A stretch of 64,000 bases of DNA, taken from Astropecten irregularis (Eukaryota; Echinodermata; Asteroidea; Paxillosida; Astropectinidae). The translations under genes and the position numbers were made by a program. The stretch is taken from NCBI GenBank assembly GCA_963971285.1, contig OZ020254.1, positions 16,150,932 to 16,214,931 on the forward strand. Direction: 5' to 3'. The notes below the pieces were generated by a model that was not told the DNA's origin, made no database searches, and saw only the letters and a list, made by a program, of their open reading frames with translations. This document shows, in pieces, positions 2,771-49,644 of the stretch (position 1 is its first letter; each line of letters opens with the position of its first letter).

Positions 2771-3148
2771 GTTTGTTGTTATTCTATGAAAATCATATTA
2801 TAAACAGTCTGCAGCTGTTCTGTCACCTTTACCAATCCTATTATGCATTTAAATTAATTTCATATTTTGTAAACCCTCACCCCACTCTGGTGCTTTATTT
2901 AATAATGGAAGAGGCCATGTGGTACTAGTGCAAAACTCCTTACGGGGAAATTGTTGTGCATGTGGCACATAGCATGCAGTGGTAGTGTGATCAAAAGTTT
3001 CTGTAAGTAAGCTTGTGAGTAAAAGGTTCTTGAGAAAAAGGAATGGATAAACTGTCTCAGGTAGTTATGAGTGATGTTGAATTGTTTCTTTCAATTATCT
3101 GGTGGCTCAATGCATGTATGGAACAATTGGAATGAACAAAATACTTGC

Positions 3149-5083
3149 CCTCAAGATTGACGTTAATGTCGTCTAGATTCTTTCCTGCAAAGCTGTTGAC
3201 CTCCCCCTTCTCAAGAAGCATCAGAATCTTTGCAACCTTTGCTGTCTGCAAGGTGTTTTCTGGTAGGCGATAGTACTCCCTGTGCACACGAATGTCATGG
3301 CCCATGAATGTTGCCAGTACATCCAGTTCATTATCCTTGAGACAGAGAAGTTGAGACAGGGTTGCCACATGCTTGCGAAGTTTGGTCGAAGTTACATATT
3401 CAGGGTGTTCTGCTCCAGACTTCACGACAAAAGTCTTGATGCTATCACAGCCACGATATGACGTTGAACATCCCGGCCTTGCAAACAGATACGGATTGCT
3501 TGGAAAACCCCAACAGCATCTCTCTTTGAGATAAGGAGTGTGATGCTTTGGACCATGGAAGCAGACAACAGGATTGGGACTTTTCGTCCCCGCTTTCCTC
3601 GGATTTCAACACGAGACAATTTGGTGCAAAGTCTTTGCTCCCACTGGGAGAGGCCCTGCATGACATCATCATTTACATCATTGCTTGCCTTATGGAACTG
3701 CGCAATCTCCATTCGTTCCACCTCTCCACTCCTCCTCCGGTTGAATAAGATCAGCTGGACAAGAATTGCCTTTGCAAGCATTGTATAGTCACTCTTCTGG
3801 GTTGTTTCTTGAAGTGCCTTCATCTTGTCTTGGATTGTATGTGAGACATACTGATGAACCTTCGCTACGTCATTTGACACAGGTAACATGCTTGGCTTGT
3901 TCCATTTCCTTTCATACAGCGTAGTCAGTGCGCCTTTGGATACCTTTGGTGACCAGCAAATTTTGCAGAGTTCTGCAAAGTTCTCAGCCTGCTTTTGGAG
4001 TTCTTCATCTCCCTCTTTTATTGCATCTGCCTTCACAATAAGAGCACATTTACCAAGTAAATGACCTAATTTCAGTGCCAGAGAAGGAGTTGCGTATCTT
4101 CCGGTTACAACATCAAGCCTAGCCACGTCATTCACAGCTTCTACTACATCGTCAAAAAACCTTGGATTGATGCAGTCTTTGAATGTGCTGATAGAGGGAT
4201 TCTTCTCCCTTGCTTTCATCAGAAGACGACCAACTTCCCTCATCTTCTGACTGACATGTTGATACTGGTTCTTGGCATGTTCTGCTTTCCCCAGAATGTG
4301 CATGCCAAGTTTGATTATCAGATCATCATTTCTTGCTGCTAGGCTTACACCATCTGGCGTCATGTGAGAGATGACCTTATCTTTGAAGGCATCAGAAACA
4401 GAAGTAGACATTGGCAACAACAAAGCAGACTGAGCTTTCAATGATTTACCAAGAGACTTTCCTTCAGTGTTCATTTTACAAGTCTTCTGATGTTTCCAAA
4501 GATCAGTTGCAATGAAGTACCCAAAACATCGACTACAGGGAAGATAGGCACTGGCTGGTGTCTCATAGGTGGGGCGTTTGTATGGAATGAGTATGCCTTC
4601 TTGCTTTGTGAGAACATCAACATTATGGGCATGATTTCCCTTATTCCTCAGTAACTCAAGATGATTTTTTCTTTGTTGTGACTTCAAAGGGAAGCTGAGG
4701 GCTTTAACTACTTCTGGCTCTTCTGCATGATGGCCCTCTAAATGCCTTGGAAGTTTGGGGGTTGTCTCCATACAGAAAACACAGTACTGCCATTTGTCCC
4801 ATTTTCTGCCTTCTTGGTTGTTGGTTGTCAAAACCCTAATCTTGGATGATGATGAAACAGAATCATCTTGTAGTGACTCTTCTGCAACTTCTGAAGACAA
4901 ATCATCCAGTTTGCCTGGAGACTGAATATGTTGAGCACTGTGATTAGAGGCCACTCTTTTTGGAAGGGGGATAATATCTGAATCATCCGTATCACTAGAT
5001 TCTTCAATCATGTCAGCTTGGTAGGTAGGGTCATCGCAAGAATCGTCTGATTCGCAGTCGCTAAAACTGATGGTAGAAGAGAC
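3149..5083 (-). CDS. Large exon: acidic linker, Cys/His motifs and tyrosine-recombinase-like domain
   Basis: The exon opens after a pyrimidine-rich acceptor (TTTTTATGTGCACTAG) at 5,084, about 70 nt before the first Met. It encodes an acidic stretch (CESDDSCDDPTY), a WxYCVFC...H...H motif, a CSRCFGYF...H...C motif, then a helical region and a tyrosine-recombinase-like fold: box I around RRRSGEVERM, box II around KLRKHVATL, and the GHDIRVHREYY segment carrying the candidate nucleophilic Tyr. The usual box II His (HxxR) is replaced. One reading-frame change near 3,498 (one base short) splits this exon into 529- and 122-codon frames; all else is intact, so sequencing error or a recent mutation are both possible. 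It ends phase 1 at an apparent GC-AG donor (GGGCAAGT). The domain resembles Crypton-type integrases; whether it is a host gene or a domesticated or broken transposon protein is undecided. Confidence 0.75.
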
Positions 5084-5510: not shown

Positions 5511-5822
5511 TAATCGTACTTCATCAGCAGCAGAAATGACACTGATGTGTCATTAACCATGTGTCACCATACAAGTGAGGATCTACAATCTACTACAATG
5601 TACTTCATTTTTGGCTGCAGATAACAGTCCATGACAAAGCACAAGCAATGCCAGCGAGACCAGAGGAGGTACCGGTAACAGCAGGAGAAATGACACTGCT
5701 CTTCCACCAATCTTGTGTCACAATACAAGTCAGGATCTTCACAATTTGTTTCAAATTATACGTCTCATTTCAAAGTTTCAGAGCAATTAACAACGTAAAG
5801 CAAGGATACAGATGACACTTAC

Positions 5823-5876
5823 CGGTACCTCCTCTGGTCTCGCTGGCATTGATTCTGCTTTGTCTTGGACTGTTAT
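5823..5876 (-). CDS. 54-nt mini-exon, copy 18 (last before the recombinase-like exon)
   Basis: Acceptor GTGGCATTAG and donor GTAAGTG bracket exactly 54 nt (phase 0) reading ITVQDKAESMPARPEEVP. The SET exon ends in phase 0 and the exon starting at 5,083 begins in phase 0, so the mini-exon can be spliced between them in frame. An inverted copy lies at 5,621-5,674. Confidence 0.6.
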
Positions 5877-6891
5877 CTAATGCCACAAATGAAAATTTCC
5901 AATTCAAAAACAAAGAGAATTACATTACGAACTAAACAATTCATCTCAAAGAATAACTGCTGTCATTGAACCTGTTTTACACTTCAAGTGAGGCTATACA
6001 TTATTCAGCTGAAGAAATGACACTGCTCTATCACTAATCATGTGTCACCATACAAGTGAGGATCTACAATCTACTTCATTCAGCAGCAGAAATGACACTG
6101 CTCTGTCACTAATCATGTGTCACCATACAAGTGAGGATCTAAAATGTACTTTATTCAGCAGCAGAAATAACATTGCTCTGTCACTAATCATGTGTCACCA
6201 TACAAGTGAGGATCTACAATCTACTTCATTCAGCAGCAGAAATGACACTGCTCTGTCACTAATCATGTGTCAAAATACAAGTAAGGATCTACAATCTACT
6301 TCATTCAGCAGCAAAAATGACACTGATGTGTCACTAATCATGTGTCACCATACAAGTGAGGATCTACAATCTACTTCATTCAGCAGCAGAAATGACACTG
6401 ATGTGTCACTAATCATGTGTCACCATACAAGTGAGGATCTACAATCTACTTCATTCAGTGGCAGAAATGGCATTGCTCTGTCACTAATCATGTGTCACCA
6501 TACAAGTGAGGATCTACAATGTACTTCATCAGCAGCAGAAATGACACTGCTCTGTCACTAATCATGTGTCACCATACAAGTGAGGATCTACAATGTACTT
6601 CATCAGCAGCAGAAATGACACTGCTCTGTCACTAATCATGTGTCACCATACAAGTGAGGATCTACAATGTACTTCATTTTTGGCTGCAGATAACAGTCCA
6701 TGACAAAGCACAAGCAATGCCAGCGAGACCAGAGGAGGTACCGGTAACAGCAGGAGAAATGACACTGCTCTTTCACCAATCTTGTGTCACAATACAAGTC
6801 AGGATCTTCACAATTTGTTTCAAATTATGCGTCTCATTTCAAAGTTTCAGAGCAATGAACAACGTAAAGCAAGGATACAGATGACACTTAC

Positions 6892-6945
6892 CGGTACCTC
6901 CTCTGGTCTCGCTGGCATTGATTCTGCTTTGTCTTGGACTGTTAT
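6892..6945 (-). CDS. 54-nt mini-exon, copy 17
   Basis: Same splice sites, phase and peptide as the consensus copy at 5,823. Inverted partner at 6,690-6,743. Confidence 0.6.
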
Positions 6946-7510
6946 CTAATGCCACAAATGAAAATTTCCAATTCAAAAACAAAGAGAATTACATTACGAA
7001 CTAAACAATTCATCTCAAAGAATAACTGCTGTCATTGAACCTGTTTTACACTTCAAGTGAGGCTATACATTATTCAGCTGAAGAAATGACACTGCTCTAT
7101 CACTAATCATGTGTCACCATACAAGTGAGGATCTACAATGTACTTCATCAGCAGCAGAAATGACACTGCTCTGTCACTAATCATGTGTCACCATACAAGT
7201 GAGGATCTACAATGTACTTCATCAGCAGCAGAAATGACACTGCTCTGTCACTAATCATGTGTCACCATACAAGTGAGGATCTACAATGTACTTCATTTTT
7301 GGCTGCAGATAACAGTCCATGACAAAGCACAAGCAATGCCAGCGAGACCAGAGGAGGTACCGGTAACAGCAGGAGAAATGACACTGCTCTTTCACCAATC
7401 TTGTGTCACAATACAAGTCAGGATCTTCACAATTTGTTTCAAATTATACGTCTCATTTCAAAGTTTCAGAGCAATGAACAACGTAAAGCAAGGATACAGA
7501 TGACACTTAC

Positions 7511-7564
7511 CGGTACCTCCTCTGGTCTCGCTGGCATTGATTCTGCTTTGTCTTGGACTGTTAT
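7511..7564 (-). CDS. 54-nt mini-exon, copy 16
   Basis: Consensus peptide and splice sites. Inverted partner at 7,309-7,362. Confidence 0.6.
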
Positions 7565-8505
7565 CTAATGCCACAAATGAAAATTTCCAATTCAAAAACA
7601 AAGAGAATTACATTACGAACTAAACAATTCATCTCAAAGAATAACTGCTGTCATTGAACCTGTTTTACACTTCAAGTGAGGCTATACATTATTCAGCTGA
7701 AGAAATGACACTGCTCTATCACTAATCATGTGTCACCATACAAGTGAGGATCTACAATCTACTTCATTCAGCAGCAGAAATGACACTGCTCTGTCACTAA
7801 TCATGTGTCACCATACAAGTGAGGATCTAAAATGTACTTTATTCAGCAGCAGAAATAACATTGCTCTGTCACTAATCATGTGTCACCATACAAGTGAGGA
7901 TCTACAATCTACTTCATTCAGCAGCAGAAATGACACTGCTCTGTCACTAATCATGTGTCACCATACAAGTGAGGATCTACAATCTACTTCATTCAGCAGC
8001 AGAATTAACATTGCTCTGTCACTAATCATGTGTCACCATACAAGTGAGGATCTACAATCTACTTCATTCAGCAGCAGAAATGACACTGATGTGTCACTAA
8101 TCATGTGTCACCATACAAGTGAGGATCTACAATCTACTTCATTCAGTGGCAGAAATGGCATTGCTCTGTCACTAATCATGTGTCACCATACAAGTGAGGA
8201 TCTACAATGTACTTCATCAGCAGCAGAAATGACACTGCTCTGTCACTAATCATGTGTCACCATACAAGTGAGGATCTACAATGTACTTCATTTTTGGCTG
8301 CAGATAACAGTCCATGACAAAGCACAAGCAATGCCAGCGAGACCAGAGGAGGTACCGGTAACAGCAGGAGAAATGACACTGCTCTTTCACCAATCTTGTG
8401 TCACAATACAAGTCAGGATCTTCACAATTTGTTTCAAATTATACGTCTCATTTCAAAGTTTCAGAGCAATGAACAACGTAAAGCAAGGATACAGATGACA
8501 CTTAC

Positions 8506-8559
8506 CGGTACCTCCTCTGGTCTCGCTGGCATTGAGTCTGCTTTGTCTTGGACTGTTAT
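8506..8559 (-). CDS. 54-nt mini-exon, copy 15
   Basis: Intact splice sites and frame. One amino-acid change from consensus, Glu8 to Asp. Inverted partner at 8,304-8,357. Confidence 0.6.
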
Positions 8560-9574
8560 CTAATGCCACAAATGAAAATTTCCAATTCAAAAACAAAGAG
8601 AATTACATTACGAACTAAACAATTCATCTCAAAGAATAACTGCTGTCATTGAACCTGTTTTACACTTCAAGTGAGGCTATACATTATTCAGCTGAAGAAA
8701 TGACACTGCTCTATCACTAATCATGTGTCACCATACAAGTGAGGATCTACAATCTACTTCATTCAGCAGCAGAAATGACACTGCTCTGTCACTAATCATG
8801 TGTCACCATACAAGTGAGGATCTAAAATGTACTTCATTCAGCAGCAGAAATAACATTGCTCTGTCACTAATCATGTGTCACCATACAAGTGAGGATCTAC
8901 AATCTACTTCATTCAGCAGCAGAAATGGCATTGCTCTGTCACTAATCATGTGTCACCATACAAGTAAGGATCTACAATCTACTTCATTCAGCAGCAAAAA
9001 TGACACTGATGTGTCACTAATCATGTGTCACCATACAAGTGAGGATCTACAATCTACTTCATTCAGCAGCAGAAATGACACTGCTCTGTCACTAATCATG
9101 TGTCACCATACAAGTGAGGATCTACAATGTACTTCATTCAGCAGCAGAAATGGCACTGCTCTGTCACTAATCATGTGTCACCATACAAGTGAGGATCTAC
9201 AATGTACTTCATCAGCAGCAGAAATGACACTGCTCTGTCACTAATCATGTGTCACCATACAAGTGAGGATCTACAATGTACTTCATCAGCAGCAGAAATG
9301 ACACTGCTCTGTCACTAATCATGTGTCACCATACAAGTGAGGATCTACAATGTACTTCATTTTTGGCTGCAGATAACAGTCCATGACAAAGCACAAGCAA
9401 TGCCAGCGAGACCAGAGGAGGTACCGGTAACAGCAGGAGAAATGACACTGCTCTTTCACCAATCTTGTGTCACAATACAAGTCAGGATCTTCACAATTTG
9501 TTTCAAATTATACGTCTCATTTCAAAGTTTCAGAGCAATTAACAACGTAAAGCAAGGATACAGATGACACTTAC

Positions 9575-9628
9575 CGGTACCTCCTCTGGTCTCGCTGGCA
9601 TTGATTCTGCTTTGTCTTGGACTGTTAT
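9575..9628 (-). CDS. 54-nt mini-exon, copy 14
   Basis: Consensus peptide and splice sites. Inverted partner at 9,373-9,426. Counterpart of copy 9 in the 4.36-kb duplication. Confidence 0.6.
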
Positions 9629-10493
9629 CTAATGCCACAAATGAAAATTTCCAATTCAAAAACAAAGAGAATTACATTACGAACTAAACAATTCATCTCA
9701 AAGAATAACTGCTGTCATTGAACCTGTTTTACACTTCAAGTGAGGCTATACATTATTCAGCTGAAGAAATGACACTGCTCTATCACTAATCATGTGTCAC
9801 CATACAAGTGAGGATCTAAAATGTACTTCATTCAGCAGCAGAAATAACATTGCTCTGTCACTAATCATGTGTCACCATACAAGTAAGGATCTACAATCTA
9901 CTTCATTCAGCAGCAAAAATGACACTGATGTGTCACTAATCATGTGTCACCATACAAGTGAGGATCTACAATCTACTTCATTCAGCAGCAGAAATGACAC
10001 TGATGTGTCACTAATCATGTGTCACCATACAAGTGAGGATCTACAATGTACTTCATTCAGCAGCAGAAATGGCACTGCTCTGTCACTAATCATGTGTCAC
10101 CATACAAGTGAGGATCTACAATGTACTTCATCAGCAGCAGAAATGACACTGCTCTGTCACTAATCATGTGTCACCATACAAGTGAGGATCTACAATGTAC
10201 TTCATCAGCAGCAGAAATGACACTGCTCTGTCACTAATCATGTGTCACCATACAAGTGAGGATCTACAATGTACTTCATTTTTGGCTGCAGATAACAGTC
10301 CATGACAAAGCACAAGCAATGCCAGCGAGACCAGAGGAGGTACCGGTAACAGCAGGAGAAATGACACTGCTCTTTCACCAATCTTGTGTCACAATACAAG
10401 TCAGGATCTTCACAATTTGTTTCAAATTATACGTCTCATTTCAAAGTTTCAGAGCAATTAACAACGTAAAGCAAGGATACAGATGACACTTAC

Positions 10494-10547
10494 CGGTACC
10501 TCCTCTGGTCTCGCTGGCATTGATTCTGCTTTGTCTTGGACTGTTAT
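10494..10547 (-). CDS. 54-nt mini-exon, copy 13
   Basis: Consensus peptide and splice sites. Inverted partner at 10,292-10,345. Counterpart of copy 8 in the 4.36-kb duplication. Confidence 0.6.
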
Positions 10548-11269
10548 CTAATGCCACAAATGAAAATTTCCAATTCAAAAACAAAGAGAATTACATTACG
10601 AACTAAACAATTCATCTCAAAGAATAACTGCTGTCATTGAACCTGTTTTACACTTCAAGTGAGGCTATACATTATTCAGCTGAAGAAATGACACTGCTCT
10701 ATCACTAATCATGTGTCACCATACAAGTGAGGATCTACAATCTACTTCATTCAGCAGCAGAAATGACACTGCTCTGTCACTAATCATGTGTCACCATACA
10801 AGTGAGGATCTAAAATGTACTTCATTCAGCAGCAGAAATAACATTGCTCTGTCACTAATCATGTGTCACCATACAAGTGAGGATCTACAATGTACTTCAT
10901 TCAGCAGCAGAAATGGCACTGCTCTGTCACTAATCATGTGTCACCATACAAGTGAGGATCAACAATGTACTTCATTCAGCAGCAGAAATGGCATTGCTCT
11001 GTCACTAATCATGTGTCACCATACAAGTGAGGATCTACAATCTACTTCATCAGCAGCAGAAATAACACTGGTCTGTCACTAATCATGTGTCACCATACAA
11101 GTGAGGATCTACAATGTACTTCAATCAGCAGCAGAAATGACACCGCTCTTTCACCAATCTTGTTTCTCAATACAAGTCAGGATCTTCACAATTTGTTTCA
11201 AATTATACGTCTCATTTCAAAGTTTCAGAGCAATTAACAACTTAAAGCAAGGATACAGATGACACTTAC

Positions 11270-11323
11270 CGGTACCTCCTCTGGTCTCGCTGGCATTGAT
11301 TCTGCGTTGTCTTGGACTGTTAT
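11270..11323 (-). CDS. 54-nt mini-exon, copy 12
   Basis: Intact splice sites and frame, with Lys6 to Asn. No inverted partner. Counterpart of copy 7 at 15,634, which has the same change. Confidence 0.6.
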
Positions 11324-12324
11324 CTAATGCCACAAATGAAAATTTCCAATTCAAAAACAAAGAGAATTACATTATGAACTAAACCATTCACCTAACAAAA
11401 TAACCTGAAGATAATGACGACCTAGTCCATTCAGCAGCAGAAATGGCATTGCTCTGTCACTAATCATGTGTCACCATACAAGTGAGGATCTACAATGTAC
11501 TTCATTCAGCAGCAGAAATAACACTGCTCTGTCACTAATCATGTGTCACCATACAAGTGAGGATCTACAATGTACTTCATTCAGCAGCAGAAATGACACT
11601 GCTCTGTCACTAATCATGTGTCACCATACAAGTGAGGATCTACAATGTACTTCATTCAGCAGCAGAAATGGCATTGCTCTGTCACTAATCATGTGTCACC
11701 ATACAAGTGAGGATCTACAATCTACTTCATTCAGCAGCAGAAATGGCATTGCTCTGTCACTAATCATGTGTCACCATACAAGTGAGGATCTACAATGTAC
11801 TTCGTTCAGCAGCAGAAATGGCATTGCTCTGTCACTAATCATGTGTCACCATACAAGTGAGGATCTACACTGTACTTCATTCAGCAGCAGAAATGACACT
11901 GCTCTGTCACTAATCATGTGTCACCATACAAGTGAGGATCTACAATGTACTTCATTCAGCAGCAGAAATGACACTGCTCTGTTACTAATCATGTGTCACC
12001 ATACAAGTGAGGATATACAATGTACATGTACTTCATTCAGCAGCAGAAATGACACTGATGTGTTACTTATCATGTGTCACCAACTCACCATACAAGTGAG
12101 GATCTACAATGTACATAATTCAGGAGCAGAAATGACACTGATGTGTCACCATACAAGTGAGGATCTACAATGTACTTCATCAGCAGCAGAAATGACACTG
12201 CTCTTTCACCAATCTTGTGTCACAATACAAGTCAGGATCTTCACAATTTGTTTCAAATTATACGTTTCATTTCAAAGTTTCAGACCAATTAACAACTTAA
12301 AGCAAGGATACAGATGACACTTAC

Positions 12325-12378
12325 CGGTACCTCCTCTGGTCTCGCTGGCATTGATTCTGCTTTGTCTTGGACTGTTTT
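12325..12378 (-). CDS. 54-nt mini-exon, copy 11
   Basis: Intact splice sites and frame, with Ile1 to Lys. No inverted partner. Counterpart of copy 6 at 16,689, same change. Confidence 0.6.
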
Positions 12379-13161
12379 CTAATGCCACAAATGAAAATTT
12401 CAAAAACAAAGAGAATTACATTATGAACTAAACAATTCATCTCAAAGAATAACTGCTGTCATTGAACCTGTTTATACTTCAAGTGAGGCTATACATTATT
12501 CAGCTGAAGAAATGACAATGCTCTATCACTAATTATGTGTAACAATACAAGTGAGGATCTACAATGTACTTCAATCAGCAGCAGAAATGGCATTGCTCTG
12601 TCACTAATCATGTGTCACCATACAAGTGAGGATCTACAATGTACTTCATCAGCAGCAGAAATAACACTGCTCTGTCACTAATCATGTGTCACCATACAAG
12701 TGAGGATCTACAATCTACTTCATTCAGCGGCAGAAATGGTACTGCTCTGTCACTAATCATGTGTCACCATACAAGTGAGGATCTACAATGTACTTCAATC
12801 AGCAGCAGAAATGACACTGCTCTGTCACTAATCATGTGTCACCATACAAGTGAGGATCTACAATGTACTTCATCAGCAGCAGAAATGACACTGCTCTGTC
12901 ACTAATCATGTGTCACCATACAAGTGAGGATCTACAATGTACTTCATTTTTGGCTGCAGATAACAGTCCATGACAAAGCACAAGCAATGCCAGCGAGACC
13001 AGAGGAGGTACCGGTAACAGCACGAGAAATGACACTGCTCTTCCACCAATCTTGTGTCACAATACAAGTCAGGATCTTCACAATTTGTTTCAAATTATAC
13101 GTCTCATTTCAAAGTTTCAGAGCAATTAACAACGTAAAGCAAGGATACAGATGACACTTAC

Positions 13162-13215
13162 CGGTACCTCCTCTGGTCTCGCTGGCATTGATTCTGCTTT
13201 GTCTTGGACTGTTAT
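13162..13215 (-). CDS. 54-nt mini-exon, copy 10
   Basis: Consensus peptide and splice sites. Inverted partner at 12,960-13,013. Counterpart of copy 5 at 17,526. Confidence 0.6.
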
Positions 13216-13937
13216 CTAATGCCACAAATGAAAATTTCCAATTCAAAAACAAAGAGAATTACATTACGAACTAAACAATTCATCTCAAAGAATAACTGCT
13301 GTCATTGAACCTGTTTTACACTTCAAGTGAGGCTATACATTATTCAGCTGAAGAAATGACGCTGCTCTATCACTAATCATGTGTCACCATACAAGTGAGG
13401 ATCTACAATCTACTTCATTCAGCAGCAGAAATGACACTGCTCTGTCACTAATCATGTGTCACCATACAAGTGAGGATCTAAAATGTACTTCATTCAGCAG
13501 CAGAAATAACATTGCTCTGTCACTAATCATGTGTCACCATACAAGTGAGGATCTACAATGTACTTCATTCAGCAGCAGAAATGGCACTGCTCTGTCACTA
13601 ATCATGTGTCACCATACAAGTGAGGATCAACAATGTACTTCATTCAGCAGCAGAAATGGCATTGCTCTGTCACTAATCATGTGTCACCATACAAGTGAGG
13701 ATCTACAATGTACTTCATCAGCAGCAGAAATAACACTGGTCTGTCACTAATCATGTGTCACCATACAAGTGAGGATCTACAATGTACTTCAATCAGCAGC
13801 AGAAATGACACCGCTCTTTCACCAATCTTGTTTCTCAATACAAGTCAGGATCTTCACAATTTGTTTCAAATTATACGTCTCATTTCAAAGTTTCAGAGCA
13901 ATTAACAACGTAAAGCAAGGATACAGATGACACTTAC

Positions 13938-13991
13938 CGGTACCTCCTCTGGTCTCGCTGGCATTGATTCTGCTTTGTCTTGGACTGTTAT
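13938..13991 (-). CDS. 54-nt mini-exon, copy 9
   Basis: Consensus peptide and splice sites. No inverted partner next to it. Confidence 0.6.
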
Positions 13992-14857
13992 CTAATGCCA
14001 CAAATGAAAATTTCCAATTCAAAAACAAAGAGAATTACATTACGAACTAAACAATTCATCTCAAAGAATAACTGCTGTCATTGAACCTGTTTTACACTTC
14101 AAGTGAGGCTATACATTATTCAGCTGAAGAAATGACACTGCTCTATCACTAATCATGTGTCACCATACAAGTGAGGATCTAAAATGTACTTCATTCAGCA
14201 GCAGAAATAACATTGCTCTGTCACTAATCATGTGTCACCATACAAGTAAGGATCTACAATCTACTTCATTCAGCAGCAAAAATGACACTGATGTGTCACT
14301 AATCATGTGTCACCATACAAGTGAGGATCTACAATCTACTTCATTCAGCAGCAGAAATGACACTGATGTGTCACTAATCATGTGTCACCATACAAGTGAG
14401 GATCTACAATGTACTTCATTCAGCAGCAGAAATGGCACTGCTCTGTCACTAATCATGTGTCACCATACAAGTGAGGATCTACAATGTACTTCATCAGCAG
14501 CAGAAATGACACTGCTCTGTCACTAATCATGTGTCACCATACAAGTGAGGATCTACAATGTACTTCATCAGCAGCAGAAATGACACTGCTACTGTCACTA
14601 ATCATGTGTCACCATACAAGTGAGGATCTACAATGTACTTCATTTTTGGCTGCAGATAACAGTCCATGACAAAGCACAAGCAATGCCAGCGAGACCAGAG
14701 GAGGTACCGGTAACAGCAGGAGAAATGACACTGCTCTTTCACCAATCTTGTGTCACAATACAAGTCAGGATCTTCACAATTTGTTTCAAATTATACGTCT
14801 CATTTCAAAGTTTCAGAGCAATTAACAACGTAAAGCAAGGATACAGATGACAGTTAC

Positions 14858-14911
14858 CGGTACCTCCTCTGGTCTCGCTGGCATTGATTCTGCTTTGTCT
14901 TGGACTGTTAT
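14858..14911 (-). CDS. 54-nt mini-exon, copy 8, weakened donor
   Basis: Consensus peptide. The donor reads GTAACT instead of GTAAGT, the only copy with a donor change, so its splicing may be weaker. Inverted partner at 14,656-14,709. Confidence 0.55.
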
Positions 14912-15633
14912 CTAATGCCACAAATGAAAATTTCCAATTCAAAAACAAAGAGAATTACATTACGAACTAAACAATTCATCTCAAAGAATAACTGCTGTCA
15001 TTGAACCTGTTTTACACTTCAAGTGAGGCTATACATTATTCAGCTGAAGAAATGACACTGCTCTATCACTAATCATGTGTCACCATGCAAGTGAGGATCT
15101 ACAATCTACTTCATTCAGCAGCAGAAATGACACTGCTCTGTCACTAATCATGTGTCACCATACAAGTGAGGATCTAAAATGTACTTCATTCAGCAGCAGA
15201 AATAACATTGCTCTGTCACTAATCATGTGTCACCATACAAGTGAGGATCTACAATGTACTTCATTCAGCAGCAGAAATGGCACTGCTCTGTCACTAATCA
15301 TGTGTCACCATACAAGTGAGGATCAACAATGTACTTCATTCAGCAGCAGAAATGGCATTGCTCTGTCACTAATCATGTGTCACCATACAAGTGAGGATCT
15401 ACAATCTACTTCATCAGCAGCAGAAATAACACTGGTCTGTCACTAATCATGTGTCACCATACAAGTGAGGATCTACAATGTACTTCAATCAGCAGCAGAA
15501 ATGACACCGCTCTTTCACCAATCTTGTTTCTCAATACAAGTCAGGATCTTCACAATTTGTTTCAAATTATACGTCTCATTTCAAAGTTTCAGAGCAATTA
15601 ACAACTTAAAGCAAGGATACAGATGACACTTAC

Positions 15634-15687
15634 CGGTACCTCCTCTGGTCTCGCTGGCATTGATTCTGCGTTGTCTTGGACTGTTAT
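15634..15687 (-). CDS. 54-nt mini-exon, copy 7
   Basis: Intact splice sites and frame, with Lys6 to Asn. No inverted partner. Confidence 0.6.
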
Positions 15688-16688
15688 CTAATGCCACAAA
15701 TGAAAATTTCCAATTCAAAAACAAAGAGAATTACATTATGAACTAAACCATTCACCTAACAAAATAACCTGAAGATAATGACGACCTAGTCCATTCAGCA
15801 GCAGAAATGGCATTGCTCTGTCACTAATCATATGTCACCATACAAGTGAGGATCTACAATGTACTTCATTCAGCAGCAGAAATAACACTGCTCTGTCACT
15901 AATCATGTGTCACCATACAAGTGAGGATCTACAATGTACTTCATTCAGCAGCAGAAATGACACTGCTCTGTCACTAATCATGTGTCACCATACAAGTGAG
16001 GATCTACAATGTACTTCATTCAGCAGCAGAAATGGCATTGCTCTGTCACTAATCATGTGTCACCATACAAGTGAGGATCTACAATCTACTTCATTCAGCA
16101 GCAGAAATGGCATTGCTCTGTCACTAATCATGTGTCACCATACAAGTGAGGATCTACAATGTACTTCGTTCAGCAGCAGAAATGGCATTGCTCTGTCACT
16201 AATCATGTGTCACCATACAAGTGAGGATCTACACTGTACTTCATTCAGCAGCAGAAATGACACTGCTCTGTCACTAATCATGTGTCACCATACAAGTGAG
16301 GATCTACAATGTACTTCATTCAGCAGCAGAAATGACACTGCTCTGTTACTAATCATGTGTCACCATACAAGTGAGGATATACAATGTACATGTACTTCAT
16401 TCAGCAGCAGAAATGACACTGATGTGTTACTTATCATGTGTCACCAACTCACCATACAAGTGAGGATCTACAATGTACATAATTCAGGAGCAGAAATGAC
16501 ACTGATGTGTCACCATACAAGTGAGGATCTACAATGTACTTCATCAGCAGCAGAAATGACACTGCTCTTTCACCAATCTTGTGTCACAATACAAGTCAGG
16601 ATCTTCACAATTTGTTTCAAATTATACGTTTCATTTCAAAGTTTCAGACCAATTAACAACTTAAAGCAAGGATACAGATGACACTTAC

Positions 16689-16742
16689 CGGTACCTCCTC
16701 TGGTCTCGCTGGCATTGATTCTGCTTTGTCTTGGACTGTTTT
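16689..16742 (-). CDS. 54-nt mini-exon, copy 6
   Basis: Intact splice sites and frame, with Ile1 to Lys. No inverted partner. Confidence 0.6.
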
Positions 16743-17525
16743 CTAATGCCACAAATGAAAATTTCAAAAACAAAGAGAATTACATTATGAACTAAACAAT
16801 TCATCTCAAAGAATAACTGCTGTCATTGAACCTGTTTATACTTCAAGTGAGGCTATACATTATTCAGCTGAAGAAATGACAATGCTCTATCACTAATTAT
16901 GTGTAACAATACAAGTGAGGATCTACAATGTACTTCAATCAGCAGCAGAAATGGCATTGCTCTGTCACTAATCATGTGTCACCATACAAGTGAGGATCTA
17001 CAATGTACTTCATCAGCAGCAGAAATAACACTGCTCTGTCACTAATCATGTGTCACCATACAAGTGAGGATCTACAATCTACTTCATTCAGCGGCAGAAA
17101 TGGTACTGCTCTGTCACTAATCATGTGTCACCATACAAGTGAGGATCTACAATGTACTTCAATCAGCAGCAGAAATGACACTGCTCTGTCACTAATCATG
17201 TGTCACCATACAAGTGAGGATCTACAATGTACTTCATCAGCAGCAGAAATGACACTGCTCTGTCACTAATCATGTGTCACCATACAAGTGAGGATCTACA
17301 ATGTACTTCATTTTTGGCTGCAGATAACAGTCCATGACAAAGCACAAGCAATGCCAGCGAGACCAGAGGAGGTACCGGTAACAGCAGGAGAAATGACACT
17401 GCTCTTCCACCAATCTTGTGTCACAATACAAGTCAGGATCTTCACAATTTGTTTCAAATTATACGTCTCATTTCAAAGTTTCAGAGCAATTAACAACGTA
17501 AAGCAAGGATACAGATGACACTTAC

Positions 17526-17579
17526 CGGTACCTCCTCTGGTCTCGCTGGCATTGATTCTGCTTTGTCTTGGACTGTTAT
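17526..17579 (-). CDS. 54-nt mini-exon, copy 5
   Basis: Consensus peptide and splice sites. Inverted partner at 17,324-17,377. Confidence 0.6.
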
Positions 17580-18301
17580 CTAATGCCACAAATGAAAATT
17601 TCCAATTCAAAAACAAAGAGAATTACATTACGAACTAAACAATTCATCTCAAAGAATAACTGCTGTCATTGAACCTGTTTTACACTTCAAGTGAGGCTAT
17701 ACATTATTCAGCTGAAGAAATGACGCTGCTCTATCACTAATCATGTGTCACCATACAAGTGAGGATCTACAATCTACTTCATTCAGCAGCAGAAATGACA
17801 CTGCTCTGTCACTAATCATGTGTCACCATACAAGTGAGGATCTAAAATGTACTTCATTCAGCAGCAGAAATAACATTGCTCTGTCACTAATCATGTGTCA
17901 CCAAACAAGTGAGGATCTACAATGTACTTCATTCAGCAGCAGAAATGGCACTGCTCTGTCACTAATCATGTGTCACCATACAAGTGAGGATCAACAATGT
18001 ACTTCATTCAGCAGCAGAAATGGCATTGCTCTGTCACTAATCATGTGTCACCATACAAGTGAGGATCTACAATGTACTTCATCAGCAGCAGAAATAACAC
18101 TGGTCTGTCACTAATCATGTGTCACCATACAAGTGAGGATCTACAATGTACTTCAATCAGCAGCAGAAATGACACCGCTCTTTCACCAATCTTGTTTCTC
18201 AATACAAGTCAGGATCTTCACAATTTGTTTCAAATTATACGTCTCATTTCAAAGTTTCAGACCAATTAACAACTTAAAGCAAGGATACAGATGACACTTA
18301 C

Positions 18302-18355
18302 CGGTACCTCCTCTGGTCTCGCTGGCATTGATTCTGTGTTGTCTTGGACTGTTAT
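18302..18355 (-). CDS. 54-nt mini-exon, copy 4
   Basis: Intact splice sites and frame, with Lys6 to Asn and Ala7 to Thr. No inverted partner. Confidence 0.6.
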
Positions 18356-19051
18356 CTAATGCCACAAATGAAAATTTCCAATTCAAAAACAAAGAGAATT
18401 ACATTATGAACTAAACCATTCACCTAAAAAAATTACCTGAAGATAATGACGACCTAGTCCATTCAGCAGCAGAAATGGTACTGCTCTGTCACTAATCATG
18501 TGTCACCATACAAGTGAGGATCTACAATGTACTTCATTCAGCAGCAGAAATGACACTGCTTTGTCACTAATCATGTGTCACCATACAAGTGAGGATCTAA
18601 AATGTACTTCATTCAGCACCAGAAATGGCATTGCTCTGTCTTTAATCATGTGTCACCATACAAGTGAGGATCTACAATGTACTTCATTCAGCAGCAGAAA
18701 TGGCACTGCTCTATCACTAATCATGTGTTACCATACAAGTGAGGATCTACAATGTACTTCATTCAGCAGCAAAAATGGCATTGCTCTGTCTTTAATCATG
18801 TGTCACCATACAAGTGAGGATCTACAATGTACTTCATTTTTGGCTGCAGATAACAGTCCATGACAAAGCACAAGCAATGCCAGCGAGACCAGAGGAGGTA
18901 CCGGTAACAGCAGGAGAAATGACACTGCTCTTTCACCAATCATGTGTCACAATACAAGTCAGGATCTTCACAATTTGTTTCAAATTATACGTCTCATTTC
19001 AAAGTTTCAGAGCAATGAACAACGTAAAGCAAGGATACAGATGACACTTAC

Positions 19052-19105
19052 CGGTACCTCCTCTGGTCTCGCTGGCATTGATTCTGCTTTGTCTTGGACT
19101 GTTAT
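19052..19105 (-). CDS. 54-nt mini-exon, copy 3
   Basis: Consensus peptide and splice sites. Inverted partner at 18,850-18,903. Confidence 0.6.
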
Positions 19106-20289
19106 CTAATGCCACAAATGAAAATTTCCAATTCAAAAACAAAGATAATTACATTACGAACTAAACAATTCATCTCAAAGAATAACTGCTGTCATTGAAC
19201 CTGTTTTACACTTCAAGTGAGGCTATACATTATTCAGCTGAAGAAATGACACTGCTCTATCACTAATCATGTGTCACCATACAAGTGAGGATCTACAATC
19301 TACTTCATTCAGCAGCAGAAATGACACTGCTCTGTCACTAATCATGTGTCACCATACAAGTGAGGATCTAAAATGTACTTCATTCAGCAGCAGAAATAAC
19401 ATTGCTCTGTCACTAATCATGTGTCACCATACAAGTGAGGATCTACAATCTACTTCATTCAGCAGCAGAAATGACACTGATGTGTCACTAATCATGTGTC
19501 ACCATACAAGTGAGGATCTACAATCTACTTCATTCAGCAGCAGAAATGACACTGCTCTGTCACTAATCATGTGTCACCATACAAGTGAGGATCTAAAATG
19601 TACTTCATTCAGCAGCAGAAATAACATTGCTCTGTCACTAATCATGTGTCACCATACAAGTGAGGATCTACAATCTACTTCATTCAGCAGCAGAAATGAC
19701 ACTGATGTGTCACTAATCATGTGTCACCATACAAGTGAGGATCTACAATCTACTTCATTCAGCGGCAGAAATGGCATTGCTCTGTCACTAATCATGTGTC
19801 ACCATACAAGTGAGGATCTACAATGTACTTCATTCAGCAGCAGAAATGGCATTGCTCTGTCACTAATCATGTGTCACCATACAAGTGAGGATCTACAATC
19901 TACTTCATTCAGCAGCAGAAATGGCATTGCTCTGTCACTAATCATGTGTCACCATACAAGTGAGGATCTACAATGTACTTCAATCAGCAGCAGAAATGAC
20001 ACTGCTCTGACACTAATCATGTGTCACCATACAAGTGAGGATCTACAATGTACTTCATTTAGCAGCGGAAATGGCATTGCTCTGTCACTAATCATGTGTC
20101 ACCATACAAGTGAAGATCTACAGAGTACTTCAATCAGCAGTAGAAATGACACTGCTCTGTCACTAATCATGTGTCACCATACAAGTGAGGATCTACAATG
20201 TACTTCATTTAGCAGCAGAAATGACACTGATGTGTCACTTATCATGTGCCACCATACAAGTGAGGATCTACAATGTACTTCATTCAGAA

Positions 20290-20655
20290 ATGAAACTACT
20301 CTTTGACATTACATTACACAATACATGTAATTTGAAACAAATTGTGTAGATCCTCAAATGTATGGTGAGACAAGATTGGTGACAGAGCTGTGTCATTTCT
20401 GCTGCTAAATAATGTAGATCCTCACTTGTTGTATGGTGATACAAGATTGACATTGCTGTATAATGTAGATCCTCACTTGATTGGTGACACATCAGTGTCA
20501 TTTCTGCAGCTGAATCAAGTAGATCCTCACTTGTATGGTGACACAAGATTGGTGACAGAGCAGTGTCATTTCTGCAGCTGTTATTCTTTGAGATGAATGG
20601 TTGAGTTGCTAATGTAATTCTCTTTCTTTTCGAACTGGAAATTTCCATTTTTGGC
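20290..20655 (-). repeat. Inverted, diverged patch of 75-bp units
   Basis: Here the units read GTAGATCCTCACTTGTATGG on the plus strand, the reverse of every other part of the array, and are irregular in length. It is followed by a diverged antisense mini-exon copy at 20,661. It looks like a local inversion or an inverted insertion that has since escaped homogenisation. Confidence 0.75.
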
Positions 20656-20862
20656 TGCAGATCGCAGTCCATGACAAAGCACAAGCAATGCCAGGGAGAT
20701 CAGAGGAGGTACCAGTATCAGCAGCAGAAATGACACCGCTCTTTCACCAATCTTGTTTCTCAATACAAGTCAGGATCTTCACAATTTGTTTGAAATTATA
20801 CGTCTCATTTCAAAGTTTCAGACCAATTAACAACTTAAAGCAAGGATACAGATGACACTTAC

Positions 20863-20916
20863 CGGTACCTCCTCTGGTCTCGCTGGCATTGATTCTGCGT
20901 TGTCTTGGACTGTTAT
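20863..20916 (-). CDS. 54-nt mini-exon, copy 2
   Basis: Intact splice sites and frame, with Lys6 to Asn. A more diverged inverted partner lies at 20,661-20,714. Confidence 0.6.
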
Positions 20917-21617
20917 CTAATGCCACAAATGAAAATTTCCAATTCAAAAACAAAGAGAATTACATTATGAACTAGACCATTCACCTAAAAAAATTACCTG
21001 AAGATAATGACGACCTAGTCCATTCAGCAGCAGAAATGGTACTGCTCTGTCACTAATCATGTGTCACCATACAAGTGAGGATCTTCAATGTACTTCATTC
21101 AGCAGCAGAAATGACACTGCTTTGTCACTAATCATGTGTCACCATACAAGTGAGGATCTACAATGTACTTCATTCAGCAGCAGAAATGACACTGATGTGT
21201 CACTAATCATGTGTCACCATACAAGTGAGGATCTACAATGTACTTCATTCAGCAGCAGAAATGACACTGCTCTGTTACTAATCATGTGTCACCATACAAG
21301 TGAGGATCTACAATGTACATGTACTTCATTCAGCAGCAGAAATGACACTGATGTGTCACTTATCATGTGTCACCAACTCACCATACAAGTGAGGATCTAC
21401 AATGTACATAATTCAGGAGCAGAAATGACACTGATGTGTCACCATACAAGTGAGGATCTACAATGTACTTCATCAGCAGCAGAAATGACACTGATGTGTC
21501 ACTTATCTTGTTTCAAATTACAAGTCAGGATCTTAACAATTTGTTTCAAAATACATGTCTCATTTCAAAGTTTCAGAGCAATTAACAACTTAAAGCAAGG
21601 ATACAGATGACACTTAC

Positions 21618-21671
21618 CGGTACCTCCTCTGGTCTCGCTGGCATTGATTTTGCTTTGTCTTGGACTGTTTT
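21618..21671 (-). CDS. 54-nt mini-exon, copy 1 (first after the SET exons)
   Basis: Intact splice sites and frame, with Ile1 to Lys and Glu8 to Lys. No inverted partner next to it. It is the copy nearest the SET exon and among the most diverged. Confidence 0.6.
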
Positions 21672-22254
21672 CTAATGCCACAAATGAAAATTTCAAAAAC
21701 AAAGAGAATTACATTATGAACTAAACAATTCATCTCAAAGAATAACTGCTGTCATTGAACCTGTTTATACTTCAAGTGAGGCTATACATTATTCAGCTGA
21801 AGAAATGACAATGCTCTATCACTAATCATGTGTCACTATACAAGTGAGGATCTACAATCTACTTCATTCAGCAGCAGAAATGGCATTGCTCTGTCACTAA
21901 TCATGTGTCACCATACAAGTGAGGATCTACAATGTACTTCAATCAGCAGCAGAAATGACACTGCTCTGTCACTAATCATGTGTCACCATACAAGTGAGGA
22001 TCTACAATGTACTTCATTCAGCACCAGAAATAACACTGCTCTGTCACTAATCATGTGTCACCATACAAGTGAGGATCTACAATGTACTTCATTTTTGGCT
22101 GCAGATAACAGTCCATGACAAAGCACAAGCAATGCCAGCGAGAGCAGAGGAGGTACCAGGAGGTACTGTGTACAAAAGGACAATTATTATGCAGCAGAAA
22201 TGAAGCCGAATGCACAGCACAAGTTGTGATAAAATACTCAATATTAACACTTGC

Positions 22255-23042: not shown

Positions 23043-23086
23043 TAAGTTTTAATATGTGATGCTGCAGCTTAACTGGCTTTACTTAC

Positions 23087-23300
23087 ATGTTTGTTCCAAG
23101 GCAGCTCGGCTTCCTTGATTCCATAGTCATAAGATATTTCTTCTCCTGCATGTATGTTTTTAATTGAAAAAAGGCACAGTGTCGGGCTTCCATCCATTTG
23201 GAGTACTTTCATTTTGGCATTCCTTTCGTTTTTTCTCCCATGGTTTACAAGTCTTCCAATGTTGCTAAAATTATCACTGGGTTCCTCTGAGGCATCCACA
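23087..23300 (-). CDS. SET-domain exon 3 (C-terminal half of a KMT5A-like SET domain)
   Basis: Acceptor CTAAATCCAG and donor GTAAGT bound a 214-nt exon (1 nt completing a Cys codon, then 71 codons, phase-0 end). It encodes CVDASEEPSDNFSNIGRLVNH with the SET cofactor motif GRLVNHG (GRLINHS in KMT5A), and GEEISYDYG, which has the conserved catalytic-region Tyr. The NHS serine is Gly here. Lysine methylation with S-adenosylmethionine, perhaps of histone H4 as in KMT5A, is a family inference only. No post-SET cysteines follow, as is usual in KMT5A. The next in-frame sequence downstream is either a mini-exon of the array or the exon at 5,083. Confidence 0.8.
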
Positions 23301-23946: not shown

Positions 23947-24115
23947 CACATTCTTATGCTGTTTCCTCTATTTTGTGTGACCTTGAAGTAATACCTGTAT
24001 CCAGTCTCTTCTTCTAAGTCTCTCCTTTGTCCCTCTGCTGCTGTTATGTAATCACCATCGTATGTCATTAAGAATGCCCCCTTTTCAATATCCTTCCTAG
24101 CAAAAACTCCCCGAC
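23947..24115 (-). CDS. SET-domain exon 2 of the KMT5A-like gene
   Basis: Acceptor ATTTCTTCCATAG and donor GTAAGTG bound 169 nt (2+165+2). It reads RGVFARKDIEKGAFLMTYDG then ...ETGYRYYFKVTQNRGNSIRM. RGVFA, the E(Y)xG-like TYDGDYI and the YxYYF segment match the start of the KMT5A SET domain in order. The split codon TG|T gives the Cys of CVDAS in the next exon, as in KMT5A's CVDAT. Confidence 0.8.
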
Positions 24116-25348: not shown

Positions 25349-25461
25349 CTTTCCACGGAGTCTCCTTGACATAGAATTCATTTTCATGGTCACCTCGGTT
25401 CCTCTTTGCCTCTCGTACATGACTGTTTTCATCCTGTTTGACGCGTTTCCTTAACTTTCGT
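25349..25461 (-). CDS. SET-domain exon 1 with basic N-terminal region
   Basis: Acceptor TTATTGTAG and donor GTACATG bound 113 nt (1+111+1). It reads RKLRKRVKQDENSHVREAKR followed by ...ENEFYVKETPWK, and the split Gly codon gives WKGRGVFA with the next exon, as in KMT5A-like proteins (GKGRGVFA). The basic N-terminal stretch could be a nuclear localisation signal (inference). The frame is open only in this phase, and the phase match to the next exon supports it. Confidence 0.7.
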
Positions 25462-33602: not shown

Positions 33603-33737
33603 GGGGCTGGATGGCTTAATTGGTAGATCGCCTGTACAGTATTCACGAGGTCGCCGGTTCGAGTCCCGCTCCAGTCATTTTTTTCACTTTTCAATGACTT
33701 TTAATTCAGTCAGTTTCCCTTGTGGTTATTTGATGTT
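33603..33737 (+). mobile_element. tRNA-derived SINE
   Basis: Begins with a tRNA-like head: A box in TGGCTTAATTGGTAGATCGC, B box GGTTCGAGTCC, and pairing acceptor arms GGCTGGA / TCCAGTC. The anticodon stem does not pair, so it is not a working tRNA. A non-tRNA tail ends TTTCCCTTGTGGTTATTTGATG. The same tail occurs at 50,550-50,600 and 54,684-54,710 (both reversed). Confidence 0.7.
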
Positions 33738-36128: not shown

Positions 36129-39070
36129 TCAGAAATGACGTGGCGTCATTTCGATAGGACTAGCGACCTTCCAAGTCAATTGCTTAATAACACCATTGTT
36201 ATCAATTGATAGCCGCTCTAGTTTAGGAAGACCCTGGACATGATCAGTGAGCCTTTCCTTTGCCTTCAAACCGAATGCATTGTTATTAAGACAGAGCCCT
36301 TGCAAACCATGCCCAGCAGGGAGGATTCTGATCAGATCTGGAACGTCATCGTCTACCAGCTCACATCTATCAAACGACATTATCCTCAAGTATGGAGTAA
36401 CGATAGGAGCCAGGTCAGTCACTTCGCCATGAATATCGATATTAAGCAAACTGAAACTTAACAAATTGCACTCCTCCAATCTTTTGACTATGTCGATGAC
36501 TTCATGACATGATCGGCCATTCATTAATAGCATGAGTTTACCCTTCAGTAGCCTGTGTTGTATGAATGCAGACATATCTTCTGCACTATAGCGCGACTTC
36601 TTATCAACATGTAGTCCGAGTGCTATTCGATCACGCAGCCCCCGATCAATCGACCCAAGTGTATCCAGGATGTGTTTCATATCTCTGTTCCCTTCAGAAG
36701 ACAGGATGTACCGAACTAATATTGGCCTGTCGGCATAAATTTTGCCGCTAACAATGACATCCTTCAGAAGTGTTAGGTCTTCACGCGCTGAGATAACGAT
36801 AGGACGAACAGCTTTCCAAATCAGTGGCTTAACAACATCTTCACCGAGGCCAATGTTATCTAGTGATAGATTGTCTAGTTCAGGAAGACACTGGACATGA
36901 TCAGTCAGACATTTCACTGCATCCAATCCGAATACATTGTTATCAAGATTGAGCACTTCCAAACCATGTCCAGCAGGGAGGATTCTGACGAGATGTGGTA
37001 CGTCATCGTCTACCAGCTTACATTTATTAAACCGCAACCCCCTCAGAGATTGAGGAACAATATGATCCAAGTCATTCACATGGCCATGGATGTCGGTATT
37101 AAACACAGTGAAAGCATCCAATTTGCACTTTTTCATTCCCCTGACTGTCGAAGTGACTTCATGGCAGGATCGCCCATCCATTACTAGCATGAATTCCCCC
37201 ACTAGTTTAGATACCCCCACTAGTTTAGATACCCCCACTAGTTTAGATACCCCCACTGGTTTAGATACCCGTGGCATAAACGCAGACTTATCCTCTGCAT
37301 CATAGCACGACTTCTTATCAATATATACTTCTAATGATATTCGATCACGCAGCACCTGATCAATCAACCCAAGTGTGTCCAGGAGGTGTTGTATATCTCC
37401 TTTCCCTTCAGCAGGCAGGGTGAGAATAACATCACTTGAACTGATATTACCACTCAGGAAAATATCCTTCAGAAGCCTCAGATCTTCAGCTGTTGTACAC
37501 ATAGTAAATAGATATGCATGGATCAGTGATGGGGGGATGCACTGTATGTAGTTGTGCAGTGCTATTAGGTCCTCCCCATTCAGAACTTCTACTGTGCTTG
37601 ATGGGTTTAGTTTGCTTACCAACTCCTTTGATCCAGATTCAAATAAAAGCAACCGTGCCAATCTGTGCAGTCTTTCCTCATCATGACCCTGCATCTTCCT
37701 GATATGTTCCAGAATGAACCCAGCAGCGAGCGGAGACATGCCACAAACAAACCGAAGGAGATATTCCATGTCGAATACATTGTCTAAGGTGATCTGTTTC
37801 AATTTGAGAAGGAACTTTTTTTTGTCAGAATGAAACATCTTTGTTAGACAGTATGCTGCAAAGTATTCTTGGAAAGACGTGTGGAGGAAACTTACGACGT
37901 CCATCCCTTTCAAACCACTTGTTACTCTTTCCTTTTGAAGGAGACCAAATCTACACCCATCTTCCAACGTAGACTTTCCATATCTATGGATTTCTTGTGC
38001 TTTGAAATAGAGGTTTTTTTGTCTTGGATCTAGTAAACCATCCAAAGCGAGATGTCCCAGATTTCTCCGAACTGACTCCATTTGCTTTGTGTTTTCATTC
38101 ACTCTCTTACGTTGGTTGAAAAGAGCATCTACAAACTCTGTAAAGAGTGATGTCAATGTTTCAGGCAAAGATTCTGATTGATTATCCCAAAGTATGCACA
38201 GAAATTGTGTGATGAGTGGAATATGTGCCAGTGAGTGTAGCAATGGGTTTGATTGTAACCTAGCAATTAATGAAATCGCCGGGTCGGTGTTGTCGTCAAA
38301 GTAAAATCGGATGTACTTGTACATTGTCTCAGATGTGAATCCCAATGCTTGAACCCTGGCATAATTAGGGTATCCGTTAATGACATAATCTTTCATATCT
38401 GGTCGTGTTGTTACCAGGACAAAGCTATTTACCAAGACTCTGTTATGCAAGATATTCTTGACTGTGTAGATACCTTCTTGGGATTCTAAAACATCAGCTG
38501 GAATCTCGTCCAATCCATCTAATAGAAATGCCGTGTGTGTTTCGTGATCATGAATTATCTCTTTTAAATCCTGCTTTTCAAGTTTAGTATCATACCGCAA
38601 AAGCTGATCAAAAATAGCCTGTAAGACACAGCTTGTCTGTTGCATTTTTTTCAACTGAACCCAAAACACAAGTTTAAATGTTGAAACCTGACTTTTACCG
38701 CATACAGTGCTGTCATATGCAATCTTCTGACACAAGATCGATTTACCAACCCCAGCTCCACCGCAACAAACCACCTTCAAGCTCCCAACCTCTTTCACAT
38801 TGAACAAATCTTCCAGTGATATGGGTTCTGTGTGAAATCTGTCCAAAATCTTAAGCTCCCCAGATATTTTTTCCTTGAGTTTGCGTTTTGTTTGTGATTC
38901 CAGACGAAGTTCTAAAGTACAAAATCCCTTCTCAATATTTACTCTTTGAGCTGGATCGGCTGGATGGATGGAGATGGTGCTTGCTGTATCCTTGTAGAAC
39001 GTGGAAAGTTCTTTCTGGAGAAAGTCTAATCCTACACGGTGGGTAAGTCTCGGAGTTTCTGAACCATTGT
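36129..39070 (-). CDS. NLR-type receptor: NACHT domain exon with C-terminal LRR-like units
   Basis: The true exon starts at 39,070 after acceptor TTCGTTTTCAG, not at the Met 76 nt upstream. It begins in phase 1 (NGSETPRLTHRVGLDFLQ). Within about 980 residues are a Walker A (GGAGVGKS), a Walker B (FLLDGLDEIP), a sensor-type VLVTTRPD, and the winged-helix/NACHT-associated region with the FLHTSFQEYFAAYCL motif typical of animal NLRs. Two related C-terminal units of about 200 residues follow, each with a LLKDxxxSG start, LRDRIxL...DKKS, and an LRR-like stretch (LNLDNNVFGL / LCLNNNAFGL). Family knowledge: cytosolic ATP-dependent innate-immune sensor. The first unit contains an 18-bp tandem repeat (VSKLVG). 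The stop at 36,129 follows a frame change inside a third unit. Confidence 0.85.
37195..37270 (-). repeat. In-frame 18-bp minisatellite in the NLR exon
   Basis: Four copies of CCCACTAGTTTAGATACC, encoding (VSKLVG)n in the protein. Being a multiple of three it leaves the frame open, and it lies only in the first C-terminal unit. Confidence 0.9.
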
Positions 39071-39109
39071 CTGAAAACGAAAAAATGAAAGGTGTGTAGT
39101 CGGACCAGA

Positions 39110-49640: not shown

Positions 49641-49644
49641 TACT

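Follow-up and report, generated by a model that had tools for sequence, protein, structure and literature searches.

An intronic higher-order satellite probably multiplied a 54-nucleotide exon-like segment and its inverted copy next to a KMT5A-like SET domain in Astropecten irregularis

When a short segment that carries the marks of an exon is repeated many times within one stretch of genomic DNA, are its copies alternative exons of a gene or passengers of a satellite? This question is raised by 64,000 nucleotides (nt) of the sea star Astropecten irregularis (assembly GCA_963971285.1, contig OZ020254.1, forward-strand positions 16,150,932 to 16,214,931; hereafter the window), in which 18 exon-like segments, every one exactly 54 nt long, lie on the minus strand at 5823-21671, between exons encoding a SET domain and a recombinase-like open frame. 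From the sequence we consider it probable that a young intronic higher-order satellite multiplied one such segment together with its inverted copy, and that the resulting array has little function and would often be hidden in RNA hairpins.

A preliminary description of this DNA had reported 18 minus-strand copies of 54 nt with AG and GT edges, and all of them were located again: AG directly precedes the segment in each copy, none contains a stop in phase 0, and the donor is GTAAGT in 17 copies and GTAACT in one (copy 14858; copies are designated here by their first coordinate), the split that had been given. The variants of the encoded peptide at positions 1, 6, 7 and 8 were likewise recovered, as were the flanking phases, which are phase 0 both at the end of the third SET exon (23087-23300) and at the opening of the frame from 5083. 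The layout of tandem cassette exons, with one segment per unit, AG and GT edges, a length divisible by three and compatible phase, is thereby found in 18 of 18 units. A scan of the whole window with nhmmer recovered the identical set and no further minus-strand copy at E values up to 1e-3. Only six distinct sequences occur among the 18 copies, which are therefore one segment multiplied and not 18 independent instances. The earlier observation was overall correct yet incomplete, as the antisense copies, the minisatellite and the change of frame in the recombinase-like part went unmentioned in it.

The repeat unit consists of a core of about 220 base pairs (bp; limits set by eye), comprising the segment, its splice sites and flanks, and of a variable number of copies of a 75-bp minisatellite, 150 matches of which fill the units, 147 in one orientation and three inverted. 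The sense units belong to three subfamilies, A, B and C, which recur in order. Positions 10494-13937 and 14858-18301 are identical at 3,438 of 3,444 bp, with 6 substitutions and no gap, while a longer comparison of the same blocks over 4,364 bp gives 48 substitutions and 340 gap columns; identity between these four-unit blocks exceeds that between the diverged A, B and C units, as in a higher-order satellite. The array also contains an older inverted unit (20345-20718), the core of which shares 122 of 143 nt with the sense core and which is accompanied by three inverted minisatellite copies. The other antisense copies have the same three segment changes at the same sites, as well as the altered acceptor of this old copy, and therefore they are probably its shortened descendants. 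Growth of the array may have proceeded by unequal exchange between minisatellites, in which case splice signals, length and frame would have been carried along passively.

The minisatellite itself, read on the plus strand, has an open frame of up to 354 codons (19242-20306), its period of 75 being divisible by three. A real coding repeat in this frame was considered and rejected, as the signal of selection was inconsistent across tests: among 108 ungapped copies of the 150 matches, distinct changes comprised 17 silent, 35 replacing and 1 stop, against 47:169:9 expected, and 48:250:3 when counted by copy.

On the plus strand the nhmmer scan of the window found 12 further copies of the segment, making 30 cores in total (18 minus and 12 plus), a number on which two methods agree. 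These antisense copies are all 54 nt long and open, with AG before 12 of 12 and GT after 11 of 12. In 11 cases the distance to a sense copy is exactly 202 bp, the copy at 22105 being an orphan, and seven of the 18 units have no antisense partner at this distance. Three distinct sequences occur among the 12, ten copies being identical over 54 nt and two diverged; the 11 partnered units comprise ten with the short form and one with the longer old form. In the two pairs measured, the arms are 75 nt long at 91% complementarity and include the segment with 17 nt upstream and 4 nt downstream.

One sense/antisense pair, when folded, gave a predicted energy of -142.7 kcal/mol against -72.8 for shuffles (standard deviation 5.16, z -13.55), with none of 200 shuffles as low, and in the predicted fold the segment and the edges of its splice sites are buried. 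Minimum-energy folds of five stretches of 4.3-4.4 kb paired 13 of the 18 segments with an antisense copy in at least one fold, over 46-51 of the 54 nt; for eight of these 13 the copy used was, at least once, their own partner. Two segments, 13162 and 19052, were present in two folds each, and each changed partner between them, so that pairing is not tied to one partner. Co-evolution of the arms was not found in the 11 pairs, mean mismatches in 54 nt being 3.64 for own partners and 3.78 for other antisense copies; with the pair 20863/20661 excluded, own partners match exactly as well as other short-form copies. In the precursor messenger RNA, most segments would then be base-paired to an antisense copy close by, and the resulting hairpin would extend from the 3' splice site through the segment to the first part of the 5' splice site; we infer that the segments are therefore mostly skipped. 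Occasional in-frame inclusion of 18-residue pieces may occur and would probably be minor.

Constraint on the encoded peptide left no sign in tests of low power (sense copies vary at 5 sites and differ from the old inverted copy at 8). Variable columns number 5 of 54 in the sense segment and 41 of 248 in its flanks, a difference that is not significant (p=0.21), or 25 of 173 in the outer flanks alone (p=0.49). The preliminary description had cautioned that all differences between copies change an amino acid and that selection is undemonstrated, and this caution was well placed: all five differences among the sense copies are replacing, 37 of 154 possible non-stop changes being silent. Against the old inverted copy there are differences at 8 of 54 segment sites and 13 of 86 flank sites, two of the segment differences being silent. 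Selection appears to act neither on the copy number nor on the encoded peptide.

Several observations weigh against an array of little function, however. Five of the 18 segments remained unpaired with any antisense copy in the 4.3-4.4-kb folds. The intron sites beside the segment (-40 to -1 and +1 to +27) are variable at 1 of 67 positions against 25 of 173 in the outer flanks (p=0.002, changes private to copy 21618 dropped), and with that copy kept whole the segment and adjoining sites together give 6 of 121 against 36 of 173 (p=0.00008); the limits used in these comparisons were picked after the data had been seen, they leave out four columns that vary, in a mostly gapped block beyond -95, and disregard the 6-nt gap that subfamily C has between -40 and -1. 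Reduced variation at the adjoining sites possibly reflects selection on splicing. When scored with a position matrix written from general knowledge, the segment donor GTAAGT reaches 7.1, against 1.1, 5.5 and 4.6 for the donors of the SET exons, and outside the array neither strand holds a pseudo-exon in which both sites match those of the segment in strength, because this donor is unusually strong. The symmetric length and right phase would likewise follow from an ancestral real exon.

The same matrix shows the segment acceptor to be weak (-1.8, against 1.2 to 3.7 for the SET exons), and if only the summed score has to be as high and no site may fall below -2, about 47 kb outside the array contain, over both strands, 13 pseudo-exons of 30-150 nt that are open in phase 0, some of which may be real exons. 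The repeat itself is obviously beyond chance; for one ancestral segment, the role of chance depends on the test chosen. When the rest of the window was searched with the peptide and with the unit, no convincing match was obtained that would make the segment a fragment of another coding exon, and the segment pattern has 0 relatives in the viral_contigs collection, which is not aimed at eukaryotes and hence little informative here.

What the segments could be spliced to was addressed through the neighbouring frames. Upstream, three exons, with boundaries inferred from AG/GT and frame, join in a single frame of 165 codons with a phase-0 end; the SET domain that had been claimed here is confirmed and is KMT5A-like by sequence (PF00856 at 9.7e-20; top PDB match 4ij8, KMT5A (SETD8), E 2.6e-17), the alignment of query residues 9-165 to chain residues 13-165 reaching the last residue of the KMT5A chain. 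Unlike in KMT5A, a splice donor comes after the domain here, and the array and a recombinase-like exon may follow. Reading on beyond the donor gives five codons and then a stop, with ATTAAA at 23053, so the SET exon could be terminal and a fusion is unproven, though plausible.

Downstream, the recombinase-like domain of the preliminary description can be recognised by eye only. Motifs of the type R...LRKH...GH...Y can be read in two frames, and we take them to resemble those of Crypton tyrosine recombinases. The frame, which has an ATG at codon 25, shifts between 3422 and 3605 and is therefore broken, or mis-sequenced there, so that the one intact frame with catalytic residues expected of a Crypton-type element is lacking. 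The first part matched 0 families in Pfam and PHROGs; the second gave one unrelated Pfam match (E 0.11), 0 PHROGs and, among PDB sequences, four unrelated ones with E values of 0.3 or above. Single-sequence structure models were poor, with a mean predicted local distance difference test score of 37.5 for the first frame and 34.8 for part of the second. No confirmed relatives of the first frame were found in viral_contigs or genome_contigs, nor of part of the second (3105-3542) in viral_contigs, collections that are not targeted at eukaryotes and are little informative in this respect. Unlike Crypton transposons, the frame has no relevant Pfam, PHROG or PDB match. The main text of a Crypton paper, as far as available, contains 'SET domain' 0 times (PMC3212892), and a literature search found no paper on Crypton and KMT5A together, which is not proof of absence from print; it gave two papers for the combination of SET domain, Crypton and tyrosine recombinase, and one for most aspects of a SET-recombinase fusion in echinoderms.

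Several other explanations have to be weighed against the satellite. That the segment is a real exon, of which variable numbers of copies are spliced between the SET and recombinase domains to set linker length, is unlikely. The interpretation in the preliminary description is borne out in part: the frame-preserving geometry that had led it to propose such a linker (54 nt, phase 0 on both sides, GTAAGT in 17 of 18) stands, and it is joined by the lack of equally strong pseudo-exons outside the array and by the lower variation beside the splice sites; the copies are not independent, however, coding constraint was not detected, the acceptor is weak, predicted hairpins cover the segments, the downstream frame is broken and the fusion unproven, and 10 of the 12 antisense copies score equally well as exons on the opposite strand (summed score 5.7, against 5.3 in 17 of 18 sense copies). 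The closest precedent is that of the tandemly repeated 81-base exons of Schistosoma mansoni, present in transcripts according to the title of Davis et al. 1988 (via PMC10526429), which are likewise short, tandem and divisible by three in length; that title speaks of transcripts, whereas the segments described here are known from DNA. No paper combining a tandem array, a cassette exon and identical exons was found in the literature search, which again does not prove absence. That the array separates two independent genes, with the SET exons in one and the recombinase-like frame either forming the other or being a relic of a mobile element, is also unlikely, though somewhat less so. The alignment up to the end of the KMT5A chain, the stop and ATTAAA beyond the donor, and the ATG of a frame that is itself broken all favour separation, while the phase-0 GTAAGT donor ending the SET exon and the phase-0 opening after AG of the next frame speak for a joint gene. 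Near-identical blocks are a known difficulty for assembly, and the 3,444-bp blocks are nearly identical; that copy number and order are partly an artefact is nevertheless improbable, given that units differ in length and by private changes and that the two blocks themselves differ both within 3,444 bp and, far more, over 4,364 bp.

Equally doubtful is a tandem hairpin-RNA locus, whose transcript would give near-identical hairpins that are diced to small interfering RNAs or edited and act on the gene itself or on related transcripts. By position, 11 of 18 units have the architecture of such loci (tandem inverted repeats with long near-perfect arms), and the mostly identical antisense copies at a fixed distance fit it, but seven units lack a partner, own partners are barely better matched than others, and searches with peptide and unit elsewhere in the window gave no convincing target. 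The precedent is Drosophila hp-CG4068, whose hairpin occurs 20 times in tandem in D. melanogaster and 9 times in D. simulans, within a class of clusters for which the available text states that copy number evolves fast (PMC10317233); many tandem hairpins are common to both, although the arms at this locus consist of an exon-like segment that lies in a candidate protein gene. Inverted Alu pairs, described in the accessible part of PMC11263572 as intronic inverted repeats that form double-stranded RNA and carry splice-like sites, resemble this locus in those sites and in the pairing predicted here, and differ in being dispersed, whereas this array is tandem and its inverted repeat is formed by the exon-like segment itself. 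A bolder combination, in which the array locks itself, its own antisense copies letting RNA folding decide which 18-residue pieces enter the SET-recombinase linker and copy number and pairing setting its length, strikes us as highly improbable. The array is, as judged from its sequence, like tandem repeated exons in layout and like tandem hairpin-RNA loci in predicted folding, and we do not assign it to either class. The positions of all features are given in Table 1.

Table 1. Features of the array and of the adjoining frames, in window coordinates
Feature	Position	Strand	Remarks
Sense copy 1, subfamily C	21618..21671	-	54-nt exon-like segment; KTVQDKAKSMPARPEEVP
Sense copy 2, subfamily B	20863..20916	-	54-nt exon-like segment
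Sense copy 3, subfamily A	19052..19105	-	54-nt exon-like segment
Sense copy 4, subfamily B	18302..18355	-	54-nt exon-like segment
Sense copy 5, subfamily A	17526..17579	-	54-nt exon-like segment
Sense copy 6, subfamily C	16689..16742	-	54-nt exon-like segment
Sense copy 7, subfamily B	15634..15687	-	54-nt exon-like segment
Sense copy 8, subfamily A	14858..14911	-	54-nt exon-like segment; donor GTAACT
Sense copy 9, A upstream and B-like downstream	13938..13991	-	54-nt exon-like segment
Sense copy 10, subfamily A	13162..13215	-	54-nt exon-like segment
Sense copy 11, subfamily C	12325..12378	-	54-nt exon-like segment
Sense copy 12, subfamily B	11270..11323	-	54-nt exon-like segment
Sense copy 13, subfamily A	10494..10547	-	54-nt exon-like segment
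Sense copy 14, subfamily A	9575..9628	-	54-nt exon-like segment
Sense copy 15, subfamily A	8506..8559	-	54-nt exon-like segment; E to D
Sense copy 16, subfamily A	7511..7564	-	54-nt exon-like segment
Sense copy 17, subfamily A	6892..6945	-	54-nt exon-like segment
Sense copy 18, subfamily A	5823..5876	-	54-nt exon-like segment
Antisense copy, orphan	22105..22158	+	Lacks a following GT and a sense partner 202 bp away
Antisense copy, most diverged	20661..20714	+	Partner of 20863; within whole inverted unit
Antisense copy	18850..18903	+	Partner of 19052
Antisense copy	17324..17377	+	Partner of 17526
Antisense copy	14656..14709	+	Partner of 14858
Antisense copy	12960..13013	+	Partner of 13162
Antisense copy	10292..10345	+	Partner of 10494
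Antisense copy	9373..9426	+	Partner of 9575
Antisense copy	8304..8357	+	Partner of 8506
Antisense copy	7309..7362	+	Partner of 7511
Antisense copy	6690..6743	+	Partner of 6892
Antisense copy	5621..5674	+	Partner of 5823
Example hairpin	5604..5893	-	Two 75-nt arms, 91% complementary, 140 nt apart; segment, 17 nt upstream, 4 nt downstream
75-bp minisatellite	5524..22090	+	150 matches, 3 inverted at 20345-20580
Higher-order repeat	10494..18301		10494-13937 vs 14858-18301, 6 substitutions in 3,444 bp
Old inverted unit	20345..20718	+	Inverted minisatellite and inverted core
SET gene exon	25349..25461	-	AG/GT and frame
SET gene exon	23947..24115	-	AG/GT and frame
SET gene exon	23087..23300	-	Ends ...PWNKH; phase-0 donor GTAAGT
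Recombinase-like open frame, first part	3422..5083	-	553 codons; no family match
Recombinase-like open frame, second part	3057..3605	-	Other frame; tyrosine-recombinase-like motif by eye

Elsewhere in the window, a 1005-codon open frame with a NACHT domain lies on the minus strand at 36132-39146 and contains an 18-bp tandem repeat at 37196-37270. Near it, at 40243-40902 on the same strand, there is a second 75-bp tandem repeat of other sequence, which is open as a 25-residue repeat in a 305-codon frame. A fibrinogen C-terminal domain and a PAN domain are encoded at 55243-56277 (minus strand), and open frames at 49548-50224 (plus strand) resemble by eye parts of a reverse transcriptase (YVDDTFVIW) and may be what is left of a retroelement. 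The sole Rfam match at the gathering threshold is to the transfer RNA family at 33605-33677 (plus strand; 32.7 bits against a threshold of 29).

In conclusion, the meaning of this satellite depends on whether any of its copies are spliced. If some are, the locus would be a natural experiment of 18 near-identical cassettes that differ partly in the presence of an antisense partner about 140 nt away, and would allow a direct measure of the control that RNA hairpins exert over exon choice. If none are, it would be a minisatellite that has multiplied a perfect-looking exon without selection, and as such a warning for gene annotation.

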